Source of the DNA: Candidatus Sulfopaludibacter sp. SbA3
Lineage (GTDB): Bacteria > Acidobacteriota > Terriglobia > Bryobacterales > Bryobacteraceae
Reading direction: 5' to 3'
DNA: 64,000 bases
Assembly: GCA_945890485.1 (NCBI GenBank)
Contig: CAMDCN010000001.1
Span: 186,001 to 250,000 of the forward strand
Made by a program: the position numbers and the translations under genes. Shown piece by piece: positions 47,190 to 60,092 of the stretch; within the stretch, counting starts at the first letter, position 1, and the number at the start of each line of letters is the position of its first letter. The notes beneath the pieces were generated by a model. That model did no database searches and was not told where the DNA came from. It saw only the letters and a program-made list of their open reading frames with translations.

Positions 47190-48559
47190 TTTGCCGGTTT
47201 GAGCGACTGCGAGATGCGTTGCGCATAGGCTCGTGCGGCGGCTAACACGCGAGCGCGATCGAGCGTTTGGGGAACTCGCTGCTTCACGACGATGCGGCCA
47301 TTGATCACGACGTCCTGAACGTCTGAACCTTTCAGCGCATACACGAGTGCCGAGTAGACGTTGAAGAGCGGGACGGCCTGCGCTTCGTTCAGCGAGACGG
47401 TGATGAGGTCGGCTCGCTTTCCGACTTCGAGTGAGCCGATCTCCTTTTGCATTCCGAGGACTCGCGCGCCGTCAATCGTGGCCATGGCGAATAGTTTCGC
47501 GGCCGGGAGTGCGGTTGGATCATTCGCGGTGACTTTGGCGAGTTTGCCGGCGAGGTCCATCTCCTCGAACAGGTTTAAATCGTTGTTCGAACCTGCAGGT
47601 CCGTCGGGACCTAATCCGAGCGCAACATCCATGCGCAAGAGCTTCAACACGGGCGCGATGCCGCTGGCGAGTTTCATGTTGCTGCTGGGGCAATGCGCGA
47701 CGCCGACTCCGCGCTTGGCGAGCGTGGCGATATCGTTGTCGTCCAACCAGACTCCATGCGCGGCTACTGTTCTGCCGGTTAAGACTCCCAACTTTTCGAG
47801 CGCTTGAGTTGGCGAGAGACCTCTCTGCTTTTGGGTGTCGTCGTTCTCTTTCCTGGTTTCTGAGAGATGAATGACGAGCGGGGCGCCGTACTTGTTGGCG
47901 AGGGCGCGCGAGGCTTGGAGGGTTTCGTCGGAGTTGGTGTAGATCGCATGCGGCGCGACGGCGGCGGTGATGAGCGGGTCGCCGGCGAACTGCTTCAGGA
48001 ACGCTTCCGCGCGCTTCAGGGCATCGGCTGGCGTCTTCGCATCGGGAACGGGAAAGCCGATGATCGTTTGACCCAATACGGCGCGCATGCCGGCCTTGCG
48101 CGTCGCTTCGGCGATGACCTCTTCGAAGTAGTACATGTCGGTGTAGGTCGTCGTGCCGGACAGCAGCATTTCGAGCACGGCGAGGTCGGTGCCGACGCGG
48201 ACGAATTCGGGGCTGACGTTCTTGGCTTCGGCGGGGAAGATGTAGCGTTCGAGCCATTCCTGCAAACGGAGATCGTCGGCGATGCCGCGGAGGAGCGTCA
48301 TCGGAGCGTGGGTATGGGTGTTGATCAGACCGGGCGCGAGAATGGCATCGGGGCGGTTGATTCGGCGCTTCGCTTTATGGAGCTTCAGGATTTCGGCGGC
48401 GGGGCCGACGGCGACGATGCGATCTTTCTCGATGGCGACGGCTCCATTCTCGATGACGCGACGGACGGCGTCCATCGTCACGACATAGCGCGCGGTGATG
48501 ATGAGGTCGGCCGCGCTTAAGGTGGAGAGGAAGCAGAGGCTAGCTAAGAAACGAATCAT
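47186..48559 (-). CDS. Secreted amidohydrolase (MtaD/SAH deaminase-like)
   Basis: Start chosen at MIRFLASLCFLSTLSAAD; LAPGLINTHTHAPMTLLRG (HxH), AVAPHAIYTNSDET, VIHLSETRKE, VGVAHCPSSNMKLASGIAP. Confidence 0.9.
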   Translation of the reverse strand: MIRFLASLCFLSTLSAADLIITARYVVTMDAVRRVIENGAVAIEKDRIVAVGPAAEILKLHKAKRRINRPDAILAPGLINTHTHAPMTLLRGIADDLRLQEWLERYIFPAEAKNVSPEFVRVGTDLAVLEMLLSGTTTYTDMYYFEEVIAEATRKAGMRAVLGQTIIGFPVPDAKTPADALKRAEAFLKQFAGDPLITAAVAPHAIYTNSDETLQASRALANKYGAPLVIHLSETRKENDDTQKQRGLSPTQALEKLGVLTGRTVAAHGVWLDDNDIATLAKRGVGVAHCPSSNMKLASGIAPVLKLLRMDVALGLGPDGPAGSNNDLNLFEEMDLAGKLAKVTANDPTALPAAKLFAMATIDGARVLGMQKEIGSLEVGKRADLITVSLNEAQAVPLFNVYSALVYALKGSDVQDVVINGRIVVKQRVPQTLDRARVLAAARAYAQRISQSLKPAN

Positions 48560-48845
48560 TGAACGACTCCGGCAGTAGCTCTGCCACGGTGAATTCACGG
48601 GTTTGGCCTTGCAGGTTCACGAGGGTGATGGTGGCTTCCGGTGCAAATTCGGAGAGGATCTGGCGACAGGCTCCGCATGGCGGCGTTGGGCGCTTGGAAT
48701 CCGCGGCGATGGCGACGCGTTCGGCACAGACGGTTAAACCGTAGCTCGCGTTCTCGATGATGCGCCGGCTGGCGTCCATAGTGATGACGAGATCGGCGGC
48801 GCTCAGCGCGGTGACGAACAGGAGGCTAGCGAATAAACGAATCAT
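48540..48845 (-). CDS. Chimeric ORF: amidohydrolase-type signal peptide fused to the zinc-binding core of cytidine deaminase
   Basis: MIRLFASLLFVTALSAADLVITMDASRRIIEN joined to ASYGLTVCAERVAIAADSKRPTPPCGACRQILSEFAPEATITLVNLQGQTREFTVAELLPESFNDSFLS; intact 101 codons. Confidence 0.75.
   Translation of the reverse strand: MIRLFASLLFVTALSAADLVITMDASRRIIENASYGLTVCAERVAIAADSKRPTPPCGACRQILSEFAPEATITLVNLQGQTREFTVAELLPESFNDSFLS
48551..48758. repeat. Direct repeat copy A (partial cdd duplicate)
   Basis: ACGAATCATTGAACGACTCCGGCAGTAGCTCTGCCAC... near-identical to copy B at 48837-49098, lacking an internal 54 bp. Confidence 0.9.
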
Positions 48846-49218
48846 TGAACGACTCCGGCAGTAGCTCTGCCACTGTGAATTCTCTGGTTTCACCCTGCAG
48901 GTTCACGAGGGTGATGGTGGCATCCGGTGCGAATTCGGAGAGAATCTGGCGGCAGGCTCCGCACGGCGGCGTTGGGCGCTTGGAATCCGCGGCGACGGCG
49001 ATGGCGCGGAATTCGCCCGGCTTCACTCCTTCGCTCATTGCCTTCCAGATGGCGACGCGTTCGGCACAGACGGTTAAGCCGTAGCTCGCGTTCTCGATAT
49101 TGCAGCCCGTGTAGATCGTGCCGTCTATTGTCTCGACGGCGGCACCGACGAGGAAGCCCGAATACGGAGCGAAGGCCTTCTCCCTCGCGGCGATCGCGAG
49201 TTGGGCGAGCTTAGTCAT
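48826..49218 (-). CDS. cdd: Cytidine deaminase
   Basis: GAAVETIDGTIYTGCNIENASYGLTVCAERVAI, PPCGACRQILSEFAPD. Confidence 0.95.
   Translation of the reverse strand: MTKLAQLAIAAREKAFAPYSGFLVGAAVETIDGTIYTGCNIENASYGLTVCAERVAIWKAMSEGVKPGEFRAIAVAADSKRPTPPCGACRQILSEFAPDATITLVNLQGETREFTVAELLPESFNDSFIR
48837..49098. repeat. Direct repeat copy B (inside the complete cdd)
   Basis: Same sequence as copy A, offset 286 bp at the left edge. Confidence 0.9.
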
Positions 49219-51242: not shown

Positions 51243-52547
51243 TTAGCTGACGACTTCGAGGATGTTTTCGCGCTCGTCAGGCACCGTGGCCGAGATGCGG
51301 AAGGCATCTTCGACGAGTTCGGCGGCTTCTTCCACGTTGGTTTCGTCGCGGTAGTAGAGGCGGCAGAGAATGGTGCCCGGATCGATCTTCTGGCCGACTT
51401 TGACTTCGAGGATGACGCCGACCGCGTGGTCGATGACATCGTCTTTGGTGTTGCGGCCAGCGCCGATGAGGGTGGAGGTTGCGCCGATGACCTGCGCATC
51501 GACGGCGGAGACATAGCCGCCACGGGTGGTGACGATGTCGCGAGCGCCGGTGGCGTTCGGGAGGAGCTCGAACTTGTCGAGGACGTTCGGGTCGCCGCCC
51601 TGGGCCTTGATGACCTCTTTGAGCTTCTTGTAGGCGGAGCCGTCGACGAGGCGGCGCTGCGCGATCTCGCGGGCTTCGTCGATAGTCGGGACGACTTTGC
51701 CGAGGTGGATCATCCGCGCGGCAAGCTCGATGGAGAGGCGCGTGAGATCGATGGGGCCGGCGTTCTGGAGGGTCTGCGAGACCTCCATGATTTCGAGGGC
51801 GTTGCCGATGGCGTATCCGAGCGGCTGATTCATGTCGGTGATGAGCGCCTGGACGCGCTTGCCGTGACGGCGGCCGATGGCAACCATCAACTGGGCGAGG
51901 CGGCGGGCATCGACCTGCTTCTTCATGAACGCGCCGGAGCCGACTTTGACATCGAGGACGAGGGCGTCGAGGCCGACGGCCAGTTTCTTCGACATGATCG
52001 AGCTAGCGATCAGCGGGATGGACTCGACGGTACCGGAGGCATCGCGGAGGGCGTACAGCGCGCCGTCAGCCGGGGCGATCTCGGCGGTCTGGCCGATGAA
52101 AGCCAGCTTGTGCTTGGCGACCTGCGCCTTGAACTCGTCGATGGTGAGATTCGTGCGGAAGCCAGGGATGGACTCGAGCTTATCGAGGGTGCCGCCAGTG
52201 TGGCCGAGGGCGCGGCCCGAGATCATCGGAACGATGACGCCGGCCGCAGCAGCGATGGGGGCCGCGATGAGGCTGGTTTTGTCGCCGACGCCGCCTGTCG
52301 AGTGTTTATCCACTTTCAGGCCCGGGATATCAGAGAAATCGACCGTACCTCCGCTCTTCAGGAGCAGTTCGGTGAGGATCCCCACTTCCTTCTCGGTCAT
52401 GCTCGAATAGAAGGTGGCCATGAGGAACGCGGACATTTGATAGTCCGGGATCTCTCCGCGCATGTACCCTTCCACGAGGTAGGCGAGCTCTTCGGAAGAG
52501 AGTTCCTCGCCGTCTCTTTTGCGGGTGATCAGGTCGACGGTACGCAT
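51243..52547 (-). CDS. deoA: Thymidine / pyrimidine-nucleoside phosphorylase
   Basis: Start chosen at MRTVDLITRKRDGEELS; KHSTGGVGDKTSLIAAP, SGRALGHTGGTLDKLESIPGF. Confidence 0.94.
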   Translation of the reverse strand: MRTVDLITRKRDGEELSSEELAYLVEGYMRGEIPDYQMSAFLMATFYSSMTEKEVGILTELLLKSGGTVDFSDIPGLKVDKHSTGGVGDKTSLIAAPIAAAAGVIVPMISGRALGHTGGTLDKLESIPGFRTNLTIDEFKAQVAKHKLAFIGQTAEIAPADGALYALRDASGTVESIPLIASSIMSKKLAVGLDALVLDVKVGSGAFMKKQVDARRLAQLMVAIGRRHGKRVQALITDMNQPLGYAIGNALEIMEVSQTLQNAGPIDLTRLSIELAARMIHLGKVVPTIDEAREIAQRRLVDGSAYKKLKEVIKAQGGDPNVLDKFELLPNATGARDIVTTRGGYVSAVDAQVIGATSTLIGAGRNTKDDVIDHAVGVILEVKVGQKIDPGTILCRLYYRDETNVEEAAELVEDAFRISATVPDERENILEVVS

Positions 52548-52601: not shown

Positions 52602-53234
52602 TTAATACGGGTTCGTTTCGAGCAGTTTCGGGAACTCCCTGGTGGCGGGCCAAACGGCCAGGGCGAGGGCAATGGCGAGGTCGTCGTGCTTGGCTTGACC
52701 GCCATGGAGGCTGATATTGAGAAGCTCCTCGCGCAGGGAGGGCCATTCTTTGAGCCCCGGATGGATGCGCAGGTTTCCGGCTTCGAAGACCATACGAAGA
52801 TTGGCGACGAGTTCCCGCCGCGGTATGGTGAGTTTGCCGTCGGGGTGAACGACGGCCTGGTGGCCGGCGGTCAGATGGACGGATTGCAGCCGCGCGGGCA
52901 ATCGTTGCGAGCGCAGGAGATCGACAATGGGCCGTCCGGGACCGGCGGCGTCAATGTAGAGATCGAGATCCACCTTTGATGAGGCGCCGAAGGGCTGACG
53001 GCGTTGCACTTCGGCAATGAGCCGCTTCACATGGGATGGTACTAAGACGTAGTCAGTACCAAGAGGCAAGCGGGCGGCGAAGAGCAGCCGGAGTTTTGGC
53101 CAGCGTTTGCGCTCCATGGAGACGTGATCGAGACCGTGATCGGTGTACACCAGATCGAGCGCCGTAAGTGCGGTGTGGTCCCGGCTTTGGCCGAGATCGA
53201 GACCGAGGATAAATTTGGGATAGAGAAGTGTCAT
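52602..53234 (-). CDS. Terminase large subunit-like nuclease domain (RNase H fold), separate ORF
   Basis: FILGLDLGQSRDHTAL, DLYIDAAGPGRPIVDLLR, KHDDLAIALALA: acidic triad positions of the TerL nuclease. Confidence 0.8.
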   Translation of the reverse strand: MTLLYPKFILGLDLGQSRDHTALTALDLVYTDHGLDHVSMERKRWPKLRLLFAARLPLGTDYVLVPSHVKRLIAEVQRRQPFGASSKVDLDLYIDAAGPGRPIVDLLRSQRLPARLQSVHLTAGHQAVVHPDGKLTIPRRELVANLRMVFEAGNLRIHPGLKEWPSLREELLNISLHGGQAKHDDLAIALALAVWPATREFPKLLETNPY

Positions 53235-54103
53235 ACACCGTTTCCAAAGAAGGGTTCATAGGCATCGTCCTGACAGATGGTGAGGATCTCCCGGTCGAAA
53301 ACCTGGCTTGCGGCGGCGCGAAATTCGCACATGAACTCTTCCCAATAGCGGACGGGATGGATTGCCCTCATTTCTTCGAGGAACTCCGCCGGAATGCGTG
53401 GACATTGATCGGCCGTGAGACGGAATCGATGCCAATGGGACAGTTTTTCGTTGTGCCAGAGATCGTAGAACAGCCCGGTTTGTCCTTTGGGGGTGGAGAT
53501 GACCCACATGGTTCCGTTCGAAGTCGCCAGAAATGGCATGACGGCGACATAGAGTTCCGCGGAGGCATAGGCGGCCTCGTCGATGACCAACAGGGCGGTA
53601 CCGGAGAAGCCACGAACGGTGGCTGGCGCATCGGGCAGGCCGACGATGCGGCTCCCGTTGGGCAGCACTAGCGACTGGTGGTTCACCCCGTCCGACTTGG
53701 GTCGCAAACCGAGTTTGGGTAGAAGCGACTTTACTTTGAGAAACAGTTCGCCGGACTGCCGTTCGCCTGGTGAGGCGATGATGATACTGGAGCCCGGATA
53801 GTGAACGGCTTGATGAATGATTCGGGTGGCTGCCATCTGGCTTTTGCCGAATTGGCGGCTGGCATTGAGAATGACTCGTTTCGCCGGGCAATCGAGCACC
53901 TCTTTTTGCAGCGGATCGGCGTTAAAACCGAGCGCTTGCGCTGCCCAAGCGGAAACAGACGGAACAACTGCGGGGCCTTCGTCCCTTGCACCGGGCTTTG
54001 TAACGGGTGGAGGACCCAACGCTGGCCTGCCGGGCGACCCGAATTTGAAAGCGGGCCATCGCTCGGCGATTTGCGGCGCCGGTCTGTTGGTCCATCGCTC
54101 CAA
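53231..54103 (-). CDS. Terminase large subunit-like ATPase domain, separate ORF
   Basis: LNASRQFGKSQMAA (TerL-type Walker A), ALLVIDEAAYA (Walker B), VISTPKGQTGLFYDLWHN (coupling motif); stop overlaps the nuclease ORF start by 4 nt (ATGA). Confidence 0.85.
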   Translation of the reverse strand: MERWTNRPAPQIAERWPAFKFGSPGRPALGPPPVTKPGARDEGPAVVPSVSAWAAQALGFNADPLQKEVLDCPAKRVILNASRQFGKSQMAATRIIHQAVHYPGSSIIIASPGERQSGELFLKVKSLLPKLGLRPKSDGVNHQSLVLPNGSRIVGLPDAPATVRGFSGTALLVIDEAAYASAELYVAVMPFLATSNGTMWVISTPKGQTGLFYDLWHNEKLSHWHRFRLTADQCPRIPAEFLEEMRAIHPVRYWEEFMCEFRAAASQVFDREILTICQDDAYEPFFGNGV

Positions 54104-54204
54104 AGCCGCTGTTCCTCCCTTGCTTCGACATTAGCGAGCGGAAGGCCGCGGACAAGACGGACTACTCCCAAAACGGCTGAATTTAAGGGGGAAATAAAGT
54201 TCAA

Positions 54205-55005
54205 TTAGGCGTTAACGGGCCTTTTCTCGGCGGTTAGCCGGGGCTCGACGCCCCGGCTGGCCGCAGCCGGTGGCCGCTTTTCGGCGGTGACTTCGGTTTC
54301 CGGGGCGGGCTTGGACTGCGCCGAGACCGAACCGTTGGATCGCGTTTGCGTAGCCGCTTGCGACGGTTCCGGCTGATGTGTTTTGTTTTCAATAGGTTGT
54401 GGTGCTTTGGCGATTGGTTCGTTCCAGAGTTCGGCCTCGGCTTCGAGTTGAGCTTCGGCCTGCACCAGGTTGCGGACTTCCGGATCCCGGAGCGCGCCGC
54501 CGTGATGCTTTTGCAGATGGGTGACCATGCGGCAGAAGGTGTTCCAGGCCTTGAGATGCCCGGCGCGGCGCCGTTCGATGCTGCGGTAGATTTTCTCGGT
54601 TTCCATCATATTGAGCGCGGCGGCAGCGGACTTGACGTAGTTCGAATAGTCGGGGTAGTCCTTGAAGGCCTTGTCGAAGTTCCTTTCGTCGAGGGCGCAC
54701 ATCATGTCGCCGAGGCGGTTGTACATCCAGAGTTCGGCGGTGAGCTGGCGCACGATTTTGGCTTGGGTTTCGGTGGCGACCTGGAATTGGCGGGTGTTGT
54801 CTTTGAGTTCCAGGGCGAAGCCTTCCTGGACTTCGACGCTGAGCAGGACATAGTTTGGGGGCATGAGGCTACGGTCGACGTAGCGGCCGTGGCGCATGGA
54901 GTTTTGTTTGGCGGCTTGTTTGCCGGCGGCGGTGACGGGACCGCGGCTTTTGGCTCCGTTTTTGCGAGCGGTTTCGCGTTTCTTCTCGAGCTGTTCGGGG
55001 GTCAT
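54205..55005 (-). CDS. Hypothetical protein with N-terminal NGAKSRGPxTxxGKxxxxxNSMRHG motif, upstream of the terminase ORFs
   Basis: MTPEQLEKKRETARKNGAKSRGPVTAAGKQAAKQNSMRHGRYVDR; same strand and order as the terminase ORFs; highly charged C-terminus. Confidence 0.7.
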   Translation of the reverse strand: MTPEQLEKKRETARKNGAKSRGPVTAAGKQAAKQNSMRHGRYVDRSLMPPNYVLLSVEVQEGFALELKDNTRQFQVATETQAKIVRQLTAELWMYNRLGDMMCALDERNFDKAFKDYPDYSNYVKSAAAALNMMETEKIYRSIERRRAGHLKAWNTFCRMVTHLQKHHGGALRDPEVRNLVQAEAQLEAEAELWNEPIAKAPQPIENKTHQPEPSQAATQTRSNGSVSAQSKPAPETEVTAEKRPPAAASRGVEPRLTAEKRPVNA

Positions 55006-55196
55006 GATCAGGGTCTCCTTCCTGCTTTGAATTTGGCAGGCGGTCAAGCGGATTCCCGGGAGGGGTTTCGCGGGAGGGCCGTGGTTATTGGGGGAAAATA
55101 TTTCGATGTACTGTGACCAGGCGTTTCGGTTGGCTCGGCGGGGCAGGGAAAATGGCGCCGGAGGTGAGAACCCGACTATTCTAAGTGAGGGTGCGA

Positions 55197-55609: not shown

Positions 55610-55939
55610 TTAGCTGGCTTTGGTGACTGGAACTGCGTGGAGTTCAATCCGACGCCCAAGCGCAATAGCGATGCGGCGCAACATTGCGAGCGTGTGGCCG
55701 TGGTAATCCGCGGCTTCCATCCGGCAAATGACGCTGGCGGTGGTTCCTACCCGCTTGGCGAGCTCGCGCTGCGATAGGCCGGCGATGGTGCGCATTTCGT
55801 ATAGCAGTTGCGATGCCTCCATCTGGATCAAGATGTCGTCCTGCTCCTGTTCGAGAACAGTTTTCTGATCCGGACCACCGGCGGAGAGCTGGTCGCACAG
55901 TTGCTGTAGGGCGCCGGATTGGAATTGCTTGGTGGACAT
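55610..55939 (-). CDS. XRE/HigA-type antitoxin
   Basis: LLYEMRTIAGLSQRELAKRVGTTASVICRMEAADYHGHTLAMLRRIAIALGRRIEL HTH. Confidence 0.88.
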   Translation of the reverse strand: MSTKQFQSGALQQLCDQLSAGGPDQKTVLEQEQDDILIQMEASQLLYEMRTIAGLSQRELAKRVGTTASVICRMEAADYHGHTLAMLRRIAIALGRRIELHAVPVTKAS

Positions 55940-55942
55940 GGT

Positions 55943-56320
55943 TTAGCCTCTGAATGTATGTTTGGTGGGATCCGCGGCAAATTTCCGTTTACGTTCAATA
56001 GCCCTTTCAGTTTCATCAGGTGGAACCGCAGCCTCTTTCATGATTCCATGCGAGACGACGACAATGTCTCTGCCGCTGAAGAAGTACAGGATCCGGTAAT
56101 TGATGCCGTGCAGAGAAGGGCGCAATTCATAGATTCCGTCCTGCAAAAGATCGGCCACGGGTCGCCGGAGTTCGTGACCTTGGGCTTCGAGTTGGCCCAA
56201 GTAGACGAGCACTTTTCGTTGCGCCTTTACGTGAATGAGTTTTAGCCAATCGAGAAAGTACACTTCATTGCCGTCCCGATAGAACACAACTTCTGTTTGC
56301 GGCACGCTACATGTTCGCAT
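55943..56320 (-). CDS. RelE/HigB-type toxin
   Basis: Start chosen at MRTCSVPQTEVVFYRDG; GIYELRPSLHGINYRILYFFSGRDIVVVSHGIMKEAAVPPDETERAIERKRKF. Confidence 0.88.
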   Translation of the reverse strand: MRTCSVPQTEVVFYRDGNEVYFLDWLKLIHVKAQRKVLVYLGQLEAQGHELRRPVADLLQDGIYELRPSLHGINYRILYFFSGRDIVVVSHGIMKEAAVPPDETERAIERKRKFAADPTKHTFRG

Positions 56321-56515
56321 ATACGCGAACGGCTGCCAATGCGCGCTGCAACGAGCGCCGTAGTTTGAGTCGTCTAGGAACTTTCTGAAAAGCCGGCTTC
56401 GATGAGTCGCTCTCTCTCCCAAAGTTCTTGTCAGTAAGGATTTTGGGTTGAGCGAAGTGTCCCCGCGACCCCTCGCACCGCCCTCAGGCGGCCATTCGGC
56501 GCCCCCGCGCGCCGC

Positions 56516-57580
56516 TTACGCATGGCTCTCCCTCAGCTTCGGAATTCGGAGTAAGTTGTAGGCCGCGCAGCTAAACACAAACAACCAATCCACCCTCGGT
56601 AGCCCTCGGAGCTTCACCTTCCGGATCGGCCCTGTCTGCTTCAGCCACCCAAACGCCTTCTCCACCAACCACCGCTTGCTCAAGCTCTGCCGGTAACCCT
56701 CGTGACGCGTTGTCCGCCCGTCAATCGCGCTCCGCCGGTTCTTATTGTTCTGCGCCACATGTGGCGTCACCTTCAACTCCCGCACCGTCTTCACGAAGTT
56801 ATTGACATCGTAGGCCTTATCCGCGCCCACCGTAATCGTCCGCTTCCCTTCGTTGATCTCCCGCAGCAACAGCAGCGCCGCATCCGGCTCCGCCGTGCCG
56901 TCCGCCGTCGTCGTCATCGCACCGGCAATCAGTCCATGGCGGTTCTCGGTCACGATGTGGCCGAGAACCGCCAGTTTGGCCTCCTTGCCCGCCGACTTCT
57001 TATATAGCCGCGCTGAGGGATCCGTCTTCGATTCGTGCGTCTCGTTGGTGCGTTTGTCCCCGTGGAAATTTGTGCCGTCGCCAGAGGAATCGTCATCCTT
57101 GGGACGGAAGCTCTTGTGGCTGGCCCAGGCTTCGATCAATGTGCCATCGACGGTAAAGTGTTCATCCGACATCAGATCGGCGGCTTGCTGCTTGACGCGG
57201 GCAAAGAACTGACGGGCAACGACTTGGTTGAGTAGGCGGTCGCGGTTCTTGCTAAATACGGTGGGTGCCCAGACGTCGTCTTCCAACGACAGGCCGACGA
57301 ACCAGCGGAACAGGAGGTTGTAGTTGAGTTGTTCCATCAGCATGCGTTCACTGCGAATGGTGAAGAAGACTTGGAGCAGCAGGGCACGGAGGAGGCGTTC
57401 GGGAGGGATCGAGGGCCGGCCGACGGCGCTATACATCGCGTCGAACTCCGAGGTCATGCTGGTGAGGACCAGATCGGTCACCTTGCGGACTTTCCGCAGG
57501 GGGTGCGTGGCAGGAATCCGGTCCTCCAGAGCCACATAGCTGAACATCCCTTCCTGAATCCGCTCGTCGTTGCCACGCAT
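56516..57580 (-). mobile_element. IS5-family-like transposase, apparently intact (IS boundaries not determined)
   Basis: 354 aa; FDAMYSAVGRPSIPPERLLRALLLQVFFTIRSERMLMEQLNYNLLFRWFVGL; FTVDGTLIEAWASHKSFRP; KRWLVEKAFGWLKQTGPIRKVKLRG. Confidence 0.92.
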
Positions 57581-57750
57581 ACCAGAGTGACGTCTAAAAC
57601 ATTTCCGGGGTATCGTGTCGCGGTTGATTTTTGAGCAAGCTCCTAAGTCCTCCTTGGGCTCGCAAAACGGTGTCGAGAACTGGAGTCGACTCCGTTGCTG
57701 GCGAAAATTCGGAGTGCTACCCTTCTACTGTCCACATAACAAGGAGCAAC

Positions 57751-58497
57751 ATGAATTCCCTCGTGATTATGCGAATTGCCACGGCCACTGCCGTTCTCTT
57801 GTTGGGTGCGTCAATAGCAAGCGCACTACCTGCTTACCTCCCACCAGGCGTGGGGTACGGCGAGAGTTACCGCCTCATTTTTGTAACGGATTGGAACACA
57901 GATAGCTATTCTCGCAATATCGATGATTACAATGCTTTCGTAACGTCCGAGGCTCTTCTCAGTCCGGACTTGGCAGGGCTCAGCACAACGTGGAGAGCCG
58001 TGTTCTCCACCGATACAATCAACGCACTTGAGAATATTGGCACATTCGGGACGCCGGTCTATGGCTTAAACGGCGCCAGGGTCGCGCTAGGTTCGCAAGG
58101 CCTGTTTTCCGGATCTCTGGAATCTCCCATTTATCAAAACCAGTATGCCCAGGGAGTGTTCTCCCAACTGGTTAAGACGGCAACCTACCCCAACAACGGC
58201 AATCTCTTCTACGACAGCGGCCTTGTTGGTATTACAAACACTACCTCACGAGAGTGGCTTGTCTTTCAAACGCCACAATATCCAACTTGGTCTGACGGCA
58301 CGCCGCTGCGAATGTACGCTATTTCTGGAGACATTTTAGTTGCTCAGCCGGATGAGGTTACGGCGGTTGCTATACCTGAACCGGGGTGTTTTGGCCTTGC
58401 TTGTCTCGGTCTGGGATGCGCTGCTGTGGGTTGCATGCGGCACGGGGCATCGGCGCGCCGATCCCGGTTAGCCCGAACCAGCACATCATCCGAGTGA
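57751..58497 (+). CDS. PEP-CTERM sorting-domain exported protein
   Basis: Signal peptide MNSLVIMRIATATAVLLLGASIASA; C-terminal AIPEPGCFGLACLGLGCAAVGCMRHGASARRSR. Confidence 0.75.
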   Translation: MNSLVIMRIATATAVLLLGASIASALPAYLPPGVGYGESYRLIFVTDWNTDSYSRNIDDYNAFVTSEALLSPDLAGLSTTWRAVFSTDTINALENIGTFGTPVYGLNGARVALGSQGLFSGSLESPIYQNQYAQGVFSQLVKTATYPNNGNLFYDSGLVGITNTTSREWLVFQTPQYPTWSDGTPLRMYAISGDILVAQPDEVTAVAIPEPGCFGLACLGLGCAAVGCMRHGASARRSRLARTSTSSE

Positions 58498-58499
58498 TG

Positions 58500-58935
58500 T
58501 CTGGCGACCAGGCATCGGCCGCTTGTCTGGCTACCATTCTGCCAAGAAAAGAGAGGGGACCGCCGTTCGATGCAGAGTTGTCGGCGGAGTTCGACGGCGA
58601 ACGCGGCTTCTCGCTGCTCGACCGCTTCGAGTCGCCCCTGCGGCGTTTGGAGCCGTCATAGCCGCTACGTGCGCCACTCTCCGGCGTCGATTGCACGGTT
58701 CTGCTGTCCAGAATCACCGCTGGCGGTTGCGCCTTGCGTCCTTCCCGCAGGCGCAACACTTCCCACAGATCATGCACCATCGCCTCAAACACTTGGGCGC
58801 GTATCCATCGTTGCGTCTGTTGGTACACCACCTGCCAATGCGGCAGATCATGCGGGATCATCCGCCATGGCGTTCCGCCTCTAGCCAGATACCGCACTTC
58901 GCGCAACGGATAGAGCCGCTGTGGCGCGGCTTCCT
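58500..58935 (-). pseudogene. Degenerate IS5-family transposase remnant
   Basis: LYPLREVRYLARGGTPWRMIPHDLPHWQVVYQQTQRWIRAQVFEAMVHDLWEVLRLREGRKAQPPAVILDSRTVQSTPESGARSGYDGSKRRRG, no catalytic middle region; edges approximate. Confidence 0.78.
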
Positions 58936-59097
58936 CCATAAGAACTCCACCCTCGTGATGGCTGAGAAGAATATGGGGTCTCCGGCAGCTGTTGCACTGT
59001 CCAGGGCGGCTGTCGCAGAGCGGGGGATGCGAGGGTCGGCAGATAGGTACCAAAGGATCGCGTGGGTGTCGGCAAACACTGCAGCTACTAAATGTCT
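58930..59097 (-). pseudogene. Truncated PIN-domain toxin (VapC-like)
   Basis: VAAVFADTHAILWYLSADPRIPRSATAALDSATAAGDPIFFSAITRVEFLWRK, then runs into the IS remnant; C-terminal PIN motifs missing. Confidence 0.75.
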
Positions 59098-59312
59098 TCC
59101 TTGGGGAAGTTCTTCCACATCTCGCGTCTGGCTTCGTCAATGTCGTCCGCTGAAACAGAGATCCCTCGGCCAGCAAGAATGCCCTTGATGCTTTGGAACG
59201 GCATCTTCGGCGCCGTCTGGTCGCGGAGGCGGGTGGCATGGCTCAAGATCTCTTGTTGCTTGTCGAGCGGAAGTGTTCGCACGGCTTCCAGAATCGCTTG
59301 TTCCACTGACAT
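59088..59312 (-). CDS. Antitoxin of a VapBC-like pair
   Basis: MSVEQAILEAVRTLPLDKQQEILSHATRLRDQ...GILAGRGISVSADDIDEARREMWKNFPKEDI; overlaps the PIN toxin start. Confidence 0.75.
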   Translation of the reverse strand: MSVEQAILEAVRTLPLDKQQEILSHATRLRDQTAPKMPFQSIKGILAGRGISVSADDIDEARREMWKNFPKEDI

Positions 59313-59795
59313 GTCGACCTCTCTTCATATCATCACGAATCTTGTCGGCAACTTCGACGGCGATGGGAGCAAAGAGCCGCGATGACTGCTGAAACCCGGG
59401 ACTAACGCTATGCGCTCGCGGTAGGGGCCAGATCACGGGCAGTCCTACGGTTCAATCCACTCCGGCAATTGCTGGCCGGAGAACTTCGCCGAGGCCGGAT
59501 TCAACCCCACGCCGAGTAATGATCGTCTCATCGAGCGTTCTCCCCGCCGGACTACATCTTTAGCACGTGTTGGCCGCCGTTTCCGCGCGGCACTTCGTTA
59601 CTCTTTCGGTAGCACGGCCGCCGGATCGATCGATCCTGAAACGGCGTCGATGGGAACCCCACCAACCCGCAGGTATCGAGACTGGCGTTGTTTCCACCGC
59701 GGCATGGCCCCCGTGGCGTGAAGGCTGCCTGCATCCAGTGAACTTCCAACCAGGCACATCTTGATACCTTGTGCCAACGGCTGTATTCGTTGTTT

Positions 59796-60092
59796 ATGGC
59801 AACGACCCGGACCACCGTCAACATTTCGATTACCCCGGAGCTGGATGCCTTCCTACAAGCCCGTGTCCATTCGGGCCGATACCAGACGACGAGCGAAGTC
59901 GTCCGGGAGGCTCTCCGGTTGCTGGAACGTCAGGAGGCCGAGCGGGACCAAGCCGTTCAGCAGCTCAGGGCGAGACTCGAACAAGGCGCCGCGGAAGCGT
60001 CGCGAGGCGAACTTCTGGATGGCGATGCGGTATTTGAGGAGCTGCGCGAGATGATTGAGGAGCGCCGCCGAGCTCGGATTGTCAATTCGTGA
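59796..60092 (+). CDS. parD: ParD-family (ribbon-helix-helix) antitoxin
   Basis: MATTRTTVNISITPELDAFLQARVHSGRYQTTSEVVREALRLLERQE. Confidence 0.92.
   Translation: MATTRTTVNISITPELDAFLQARVHSGRYQTTSEVVREALRLLERQEAERDQAVQQLRARLEQGAAEASRGELLDGDAVFEELREMIEERRRARIVNS

Follow-up and report, generated by a model that had tools for sequence, protein, structure and literature searches.

A candidate capsid-less terminase unit dispersed in many copies over the chromosomes of a single Acidobacteriota genus

A three-gene terminase cassette in the genome of Candidatus Sulfopaludibacter sp. SbA3 is best explained, with a probability that we put at roughly 0.6, as one copy of a capsid-less TerS-TerL unit that has been amplified and dispersed in the chromosomes of a single genus of Acidobacteriota. 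The cassette was analyzed within a window of 64,000 nucleotides, which is the whole stretch of DNA considered here, and was compared with related loci in the same genome, in other genomes of the genus, in other Acidobacteriota, and in phages. Terminases are known as the packaging motors of phages. A terminase unit occurring in dozens of copies without other phage genes would, if this reading is true, represent an unrecognised mobile-element lifestyle, and the link between the RNase-H nucleases of terminases and those of transposases would become testable. Terminase genes are furthermore used in practice to flag active prophages, and a family of this kind could be misread in that manner; prophages of Acidobacteria have been counted as active if they hold a capsid, terminase, or portal gene (PMC5900883). 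No paper on a multicopy, capsid-less terminase was found in the open-access literature.

The cassette and the neighboring host gene used as a landmark are arranged as follows.
55095..55117, minus strand: left-end motif GTCACAGTACATCGAAATATTTT, at which similarity to the loci L018 and L034 stops
54205..55005, minus strand: NGAKSRGP-motif gene (266 aa, NGAKSRGPVTAAGKQAAKQNSMRHG), gene and protein being referred to as SRGP; small-terminase-like by position
53231..54103, minus strand: TerL ATPase ORF (290 aa, TTG start), a terminase by profile matches in Pfam, PHROG, and PDB
52602..53234, minus strand: TerL RNase-H-fold nuclease ORF (210 aa), with an ATGA overlap with the ATPase ORF
52602..55117, minus strand: whole unit of left-end motif, SRGP, ATPase, and nuclease (approximately 2.5 kb)
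51243..52547, minus strand: deoA, a host gene (thymidine phosphorylase, named from its protein sequence), outside the unit

The three ORFs, their motif sets, and the ATGA overlap are present on the minus strand where the original prediction had placed them. The TTG start of the ATPase ORF is preceded by GGAGG a few bases upstream, and the Walker A (SRQFGKS) and Walker B (LLVIDEAAY) motifs are intact and conserved. The profile search proposed with the original prediction identified a terminase: the ATPase scores 39.4 bits against Pfam Terminase_6N (cut-off 22), matches the PHROG terminase families phrog_7579 (4.6e-42) and phrog_2 (8.8e-29), and its profile matches solved TerL structures, T4 gp17 among them. 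Judged by sequence, it is a TerL ATPase carrying both Walker motifs. The catalytic motifs of the nuclease ORF (GLDLGQSRDHTAL, IDAAGPG, and KHDDLAIALALA) are likewise intact, and residues D13, D95, and D184/D185 are invariant among 12 relatives; no Pfam family was matched by this ORF, which matches phrog_27743 (2.9e-18), and the profile of its family matches the solved TerL nucleases 5m1q, 5m1f, and 5tge at about 6e-7. The predicted RNase-H-fold nuclease of TerL, with its catalytic acidic residues, is present in the window as a separate ORF. The SRGP protein has no significant match in Pfam, PHROGs, NCBIfam, or PADLOC, and its AF2 model is all-helical and of low confidence (pLDDT 58.5), too poor for a fold search. 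None of the PADLOC defence models is matched by the cassette, and nothing points to the role in defence or DNA uptake that had been suggested for it.

At the deoA locus, the same three genes occupy the same place upstream of deoA in Acidobacteria bacterium Ga0077553 (L017, genome G001) and in pond C4_MAG_00032 (L018, genome G009), with 81-85% nucleotide identity, and this shared order at a shared locus rules out chance. Codon comparisons among the window, L017, and L018 yielded dN/dS values of 0.07-0.09 (nuclease), 0.14-0.20 (ATPase), and 0.32-0.37 (SRGP), so that all three proteins have been kept functional; the earlier argument that retention of the catalytic motifs speaks against decay is borne out by purifying selection on both halves of TerL. 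The cassette directly adjoins the 5′ region of deoA, and, among the 17 genus genomes in which deoA was matched, only three have it there. In the six closest other relatives (G006, G010, G012, G013, G016, and G017), the deoA promoter occurs without the cassette, other genes lie upstream of deoA, and unrelated sequence precedes the conserved promoter; comparison with these cassette-free loci shows that the cassette ends, on its right side, at the stop codon of the nuclease. The idea of an empty deoA locus with both flanks conserved was considered and rejected, as the left flanks of the window and L018 match no relative; because the left flanks of the relatives are unlike that of the window, the empty deoA site is matched on the right side only. 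The best-supported interpretation of the window copy is that of a probably old resident, under purifying selection and vertically kept in three species. The left flank of the cassette (55610-60092 of the window) contains a Gp49-type toxin with an HTH partner, an IS5-type transposase, and other small ORFs that look like toxin-antitoxin pairs. Elsewhere in the window, an ORF at 48540-48893 consists of partial copies of the neighboring cytidine deaminase and amidohydrolase genes and is apparently a scrambled partial duplication.

The family to which the cassette belongs is multicopy and largely restricted to the genus. The genome of the window has 13 TerL-ATPase matches and 32-40 SRGP matches, and the family is present in 19 of 19 genus genomes, with 2-22 TerL and 2-60 SRGP matches per genome; these copy numbers are approximate because the compared genomes are drafts: fragments count as matches, and copies that are nearly identical have probably been under-counted. 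TerL is absent at 1e-10 from six other genera of the same taxonomic family, and among 395 other Acidobacteriota it occurs in only eight (E up to 1e-20) and SRGP in only four (E up to 1e-10). The original prediction had staked itself on conservation of the three-gene order, and this order recurs at further loci of the same genome and in other genus genomes. Among fetched loci with an intact TerL and sufficient upstream sequence, SRGP precedes the genus TerL in all cases (6/6 in the genome of the window and 46/46 elsewhere); the truncated TerL copy L029 is without SRGP. The nuclease is fused to the ATPase, encoded as a separate ORF, or absent. In a tree of the copies, some are orthologous between species and others form bursts within one genome, and several copies are truncated or contain stops. 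In genome G004, six SRGP-ATPase units are 84-90% identical in nucleotide sequence over about 1.5-1.95 kb and three further units are 90-94% identical, in both cases within unrelated surroundings, and most of the recent G004 copies are without the nuclease. A second contig carries a copy 94% identical to the SRGP gene of the window, with no TerL beside it, and three contigs of the same genome terminate in an identical 133-bp stretch inside TerL, as repeats break assembly. Multiple dispersed copies of recent origin, a feature of transposable elements, are thereby indicated by sequence comparison. Beside the units, no gene family recurs at 33 loci of this genome and 19 loci of G004, except paralogs common to a few loci that resemble the usual large families found in these genomes; nor do integrase, regulatory, or replication genes of the PICI type recur at these loci. 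Three G004 loci (L206, L211, and L214) have nearly identical SRGP-ATPase coding units, and L211 and L214 carry different leaders, which suggests that leaders were swapped between copies and that recombination also shapes the family.

Most SRGP genes are preceded by the motif GTCAC-(N)-AAATATTT, located at 55095-55117 in the window. A model of this motif, learned on copies of the same genome and tested on 54 regions upstream of SRGP in other genomes, reached a median of 17.2 bits versus 6.4 in controls (p = 5e-28, a generous value because some of these regions duplicate, or nearly duplicate, others in the set), and 81% of the regions exceeded the 95th percentile of the controls. Similarity stops at the motif in three of four groups of copies (window/L034/L018, L206/L209/L210/L213, and L025/L035/L043), two groups having an identity of 0.82-0.98 inside versus 0.28-0.48 outside the left end; in the fourth, a subfamily of the same genome (L039/L040/L044/L048), similarity runs about 100 bp past the motif. 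The family has a predicted left terminus that is well defined, as in transposable elements, with one deviating subfamily; the motif could instead be a promoter or operator. On the right side, neither a universal end motif nor a target-site duplication was found. The candidate CTTCGAACCG..CTCTTTGAAAA..CGAAGTGT was discarded as a universal right end, being confined to some SRGP-only subfamilies, and right-end-like sequence is common only within some subfamilies. The only precise junction is the one at deoA, on the right, and the comparisons yield no right terminus accompanied by a target duplication or a precise empty site. The L036 site was also rejected as a clean empty site: the corresponding 137-bp interval in G016 and G017 contains a stretch resembling the right part of the unit and is therefore scar-like rather than empty, and in G009 and G010 the intervals are longer, with other sequence and no intact unit. 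A universal leader hairpin was likewise dismissed, as it is strong in several subfamilies and missing from the group of the window. Strong terminator-like hairpins approximately 70 bp upstream of the SRGP start occur at L026, L033, L039-L042, L045, L052, and L055; their sequence differs between subfamilies, and the window copy has none. REP-like palindromes (GGGGCATCGAGCCCC) are scattered over the genome of the window, some lying just upstream of SRGP units (near L028, L030, L038, L050, and other loci), and in G012 four copies spaced by ~240 bp (contig C25:104-913) resemble sequence downstream of some SRGP-only copies.

The relation of the family to phages was assessed on IMG/VR contigs. In two of them (L237 and L242), the gene of an SRGP-motif protein overlaps or abuts the next gene, TerL, which is followed by a portal gene. 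In L242, the portal matches phrog_30703 (2.6e-45) and TerL matches phrog_5909 (2.4e-5); the L237 gene has no PHROG match and is called TerL because of its similarity to L242 and its position. The SRGP homologues of these two contigs lie directly upstream of TerL, as small terminases do, and this position supports the small-terminase role that the original prediction had offered as a possibility. In the phage contig L019, the ATPase and nuclease are separate ORFs followed by a portal; splitting therefore occurs in phages too, and, with fused, split, and ATPase-only copies coexisting in the genus, the idea that the split is a sign of domestication had to be given up. The description of the module as phage-free holds: in the genome of the window, which is 97% complete, a search for phage head genes covering the Pfam families of HK97 capsid (PF05065) and portal (PF04860) had no match, and four control genomes were positive. 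For these families, the genome carries no prophage or prophage remnant. In other Acidobacteriota, seven loci (L132-L138; genomes G426, G138, G091, G278, and G216) have a related TerL that is split, its ATPase ORF being followed by as many as four RNase-H nuclease ORFs in tandem. Some of the loci also contain a tyrosine integrase, an HTH protein, and a primase-like gene of the DUF3631 type, and SRGP lies beside TerL in none of them. These loci look like an uncharacterised satellite-like element, and their tandem nucleases hint at more such elements.

The unit, as observed, comprises the left-end motif, SRGP, and the TerL ATPase, with the nuclease fused, separate, or absent, and unrelated flanks. 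Small terminases bind to pac or cos sites that lie within terS or next to it. By analogy with phage terminases, SRGP would bind the left-end motif, which lies a short way upstream of the SRGP gene, and load the TerL motor there; cutting by the RNase-H-type nuclease would then allow DNA to be processed directionally from the left end into the unit. Copies with an intact left and a variable right end, including those consisting of SRGP only, would be products of this one-ended processing, and short copies would use TerL in trans. The moved DNA would either be reinserted directly, in the manner of a transposon, or first be carried in the capsid of another phage. Because most of the recent G004 copies are without the nuclease, movement driven by the terminase is a step that we only infer; the non-universal right end, the lack of a target duplication, the one-sided match of the empty deoA site, the possible promoter or operator nature of the left motif, the leader exchange, and the L039-type group crossing the left motif also count against this explanation. 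A more specific version, in which the terminase takes the place of a transposase and the family constitutes a new transposon-like class, with SRGP recognising the left end, the TerL ATPase and nuclease mobilising the unit, and SRGP-only copies moved in trans, seems to us rather doubtful.

Four other explanations were weighed. SRGP and TerL may serve packaging alone, redirecting the capsids of an infecting phage to chromosomal DNA from the left-end motif and spreading in the manner of a minimal satellite or a gene transfer agent. The conserved sequence just upstream of a terS-like gene, the TerS position of SRGP proteins in phages, the lack of head genes in the unit, and the related integrase-primase-terminase elements of other Acidobacteriota, in which no head genes were recognised in the segments seen, are consistent with this possibility; however, the unit has no integrase or replication genes, no helper phage was identified, and packaging alone leaves the spread to new loci within one genome unexplained, which makes it unlikely overall. 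A terminase gene family amplified passively, through segmental duplication, IS activity, or repeat recombination, would account for the REP-like repeats and leader exchange near copies, for the subfamily extending past the left motif, and for the IS5-type transposase near the window cassette, but is distinctly improbable given that, on the left, the duplicated blocks do not extend beyond the unit in three of the four groups and that neither an IS nor any other gene recurs next to them.

The window copy may have been domesticated by its host, for example for the translocation of nucleic acids, for competition, or for defence, and the other copies would then be relics. Its synteny in three species, its dN/dS of 0.07-0.37, and the orthology of some other copies between species fit this interpretation, whereas the absence of the cassette from the same locus in other genus genomes examined, the lack of a defence-family match, and the intact, mobile-looking copies in the same genome render it quite improbable. 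The domesticated system of the original prediction does not stand as a single system, since the family is multicopy, lineage-specific, and mobile-element-like; only the window copy fits it, and fits an old resident equally well. Finally, the copies may be remnants of many independent prophages from a single phage lineage that have each lost all but the terminase genes, which would explain the phage-type TerL and SRGP proteins and the several copies that are truncated or contain stops. This is highly improbable, as it is always the same minimal unit that recurs, on its own, the copies within one genome have duplicated recently and share their left end, and relics of a portal or capsid do not recur.

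The amplified and dispersed TerS-TerL unit that we prefer can be compared with several known systems. With the TerS-TerL module of tailed phages (Terminase_6 or T4 gp17-type), it has in common an ATPase and an RNase-H nuclease with conserved catalytic residues, and SRGP in the TerS position as in L237 and L242; it differs in that no portal, capsid, or other phage genes were recognised beside the cassette, in its many dispersed copies, and in the nuclease being a separate gene or missing in some. Gene transfer agents comprise packaging enzymes of phage origin that the host retains under purifying selection. The cassette also consists of phage-derived packaging enzymes under purifying selection, but no head or tail cluster was found and the copies are dispersed and lineage-specific. 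Among phage satellites, PICIs and SaPIs have their own TerS, and cf-PICIs have TerS, TerL, and capsid genes (PMC10690885). Like these, the cassette is a chromosomal unit with packaging genes that could redirect a helper; unlike them, it has no integrase, regulation, replication, or capsid genes, measures only ~2.5 kb, and occurs in up to tens of copies per genome. The integrase-primase-terminase elements (L132-L138) have a related split TerL ATPase and nuclease, although L137 has a tyrosine integrase and a DUF3631 primase-like gene, the nuclease ORFs number up to four, and SRGP is not found beside TerL. Insertion sequences and other compact transposons are compact units with recent dispersed copies, conserved ends, and truncated and non-autonomous forms. 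The cassette differs from them in that it encodes terminases in place of any known transposase, with no universal right end or target-site duplication found, and resembles them in its compactness, its recent dispersed copies, its conserved left end, and its shorter, non-autonomous-looking and truncated copies.
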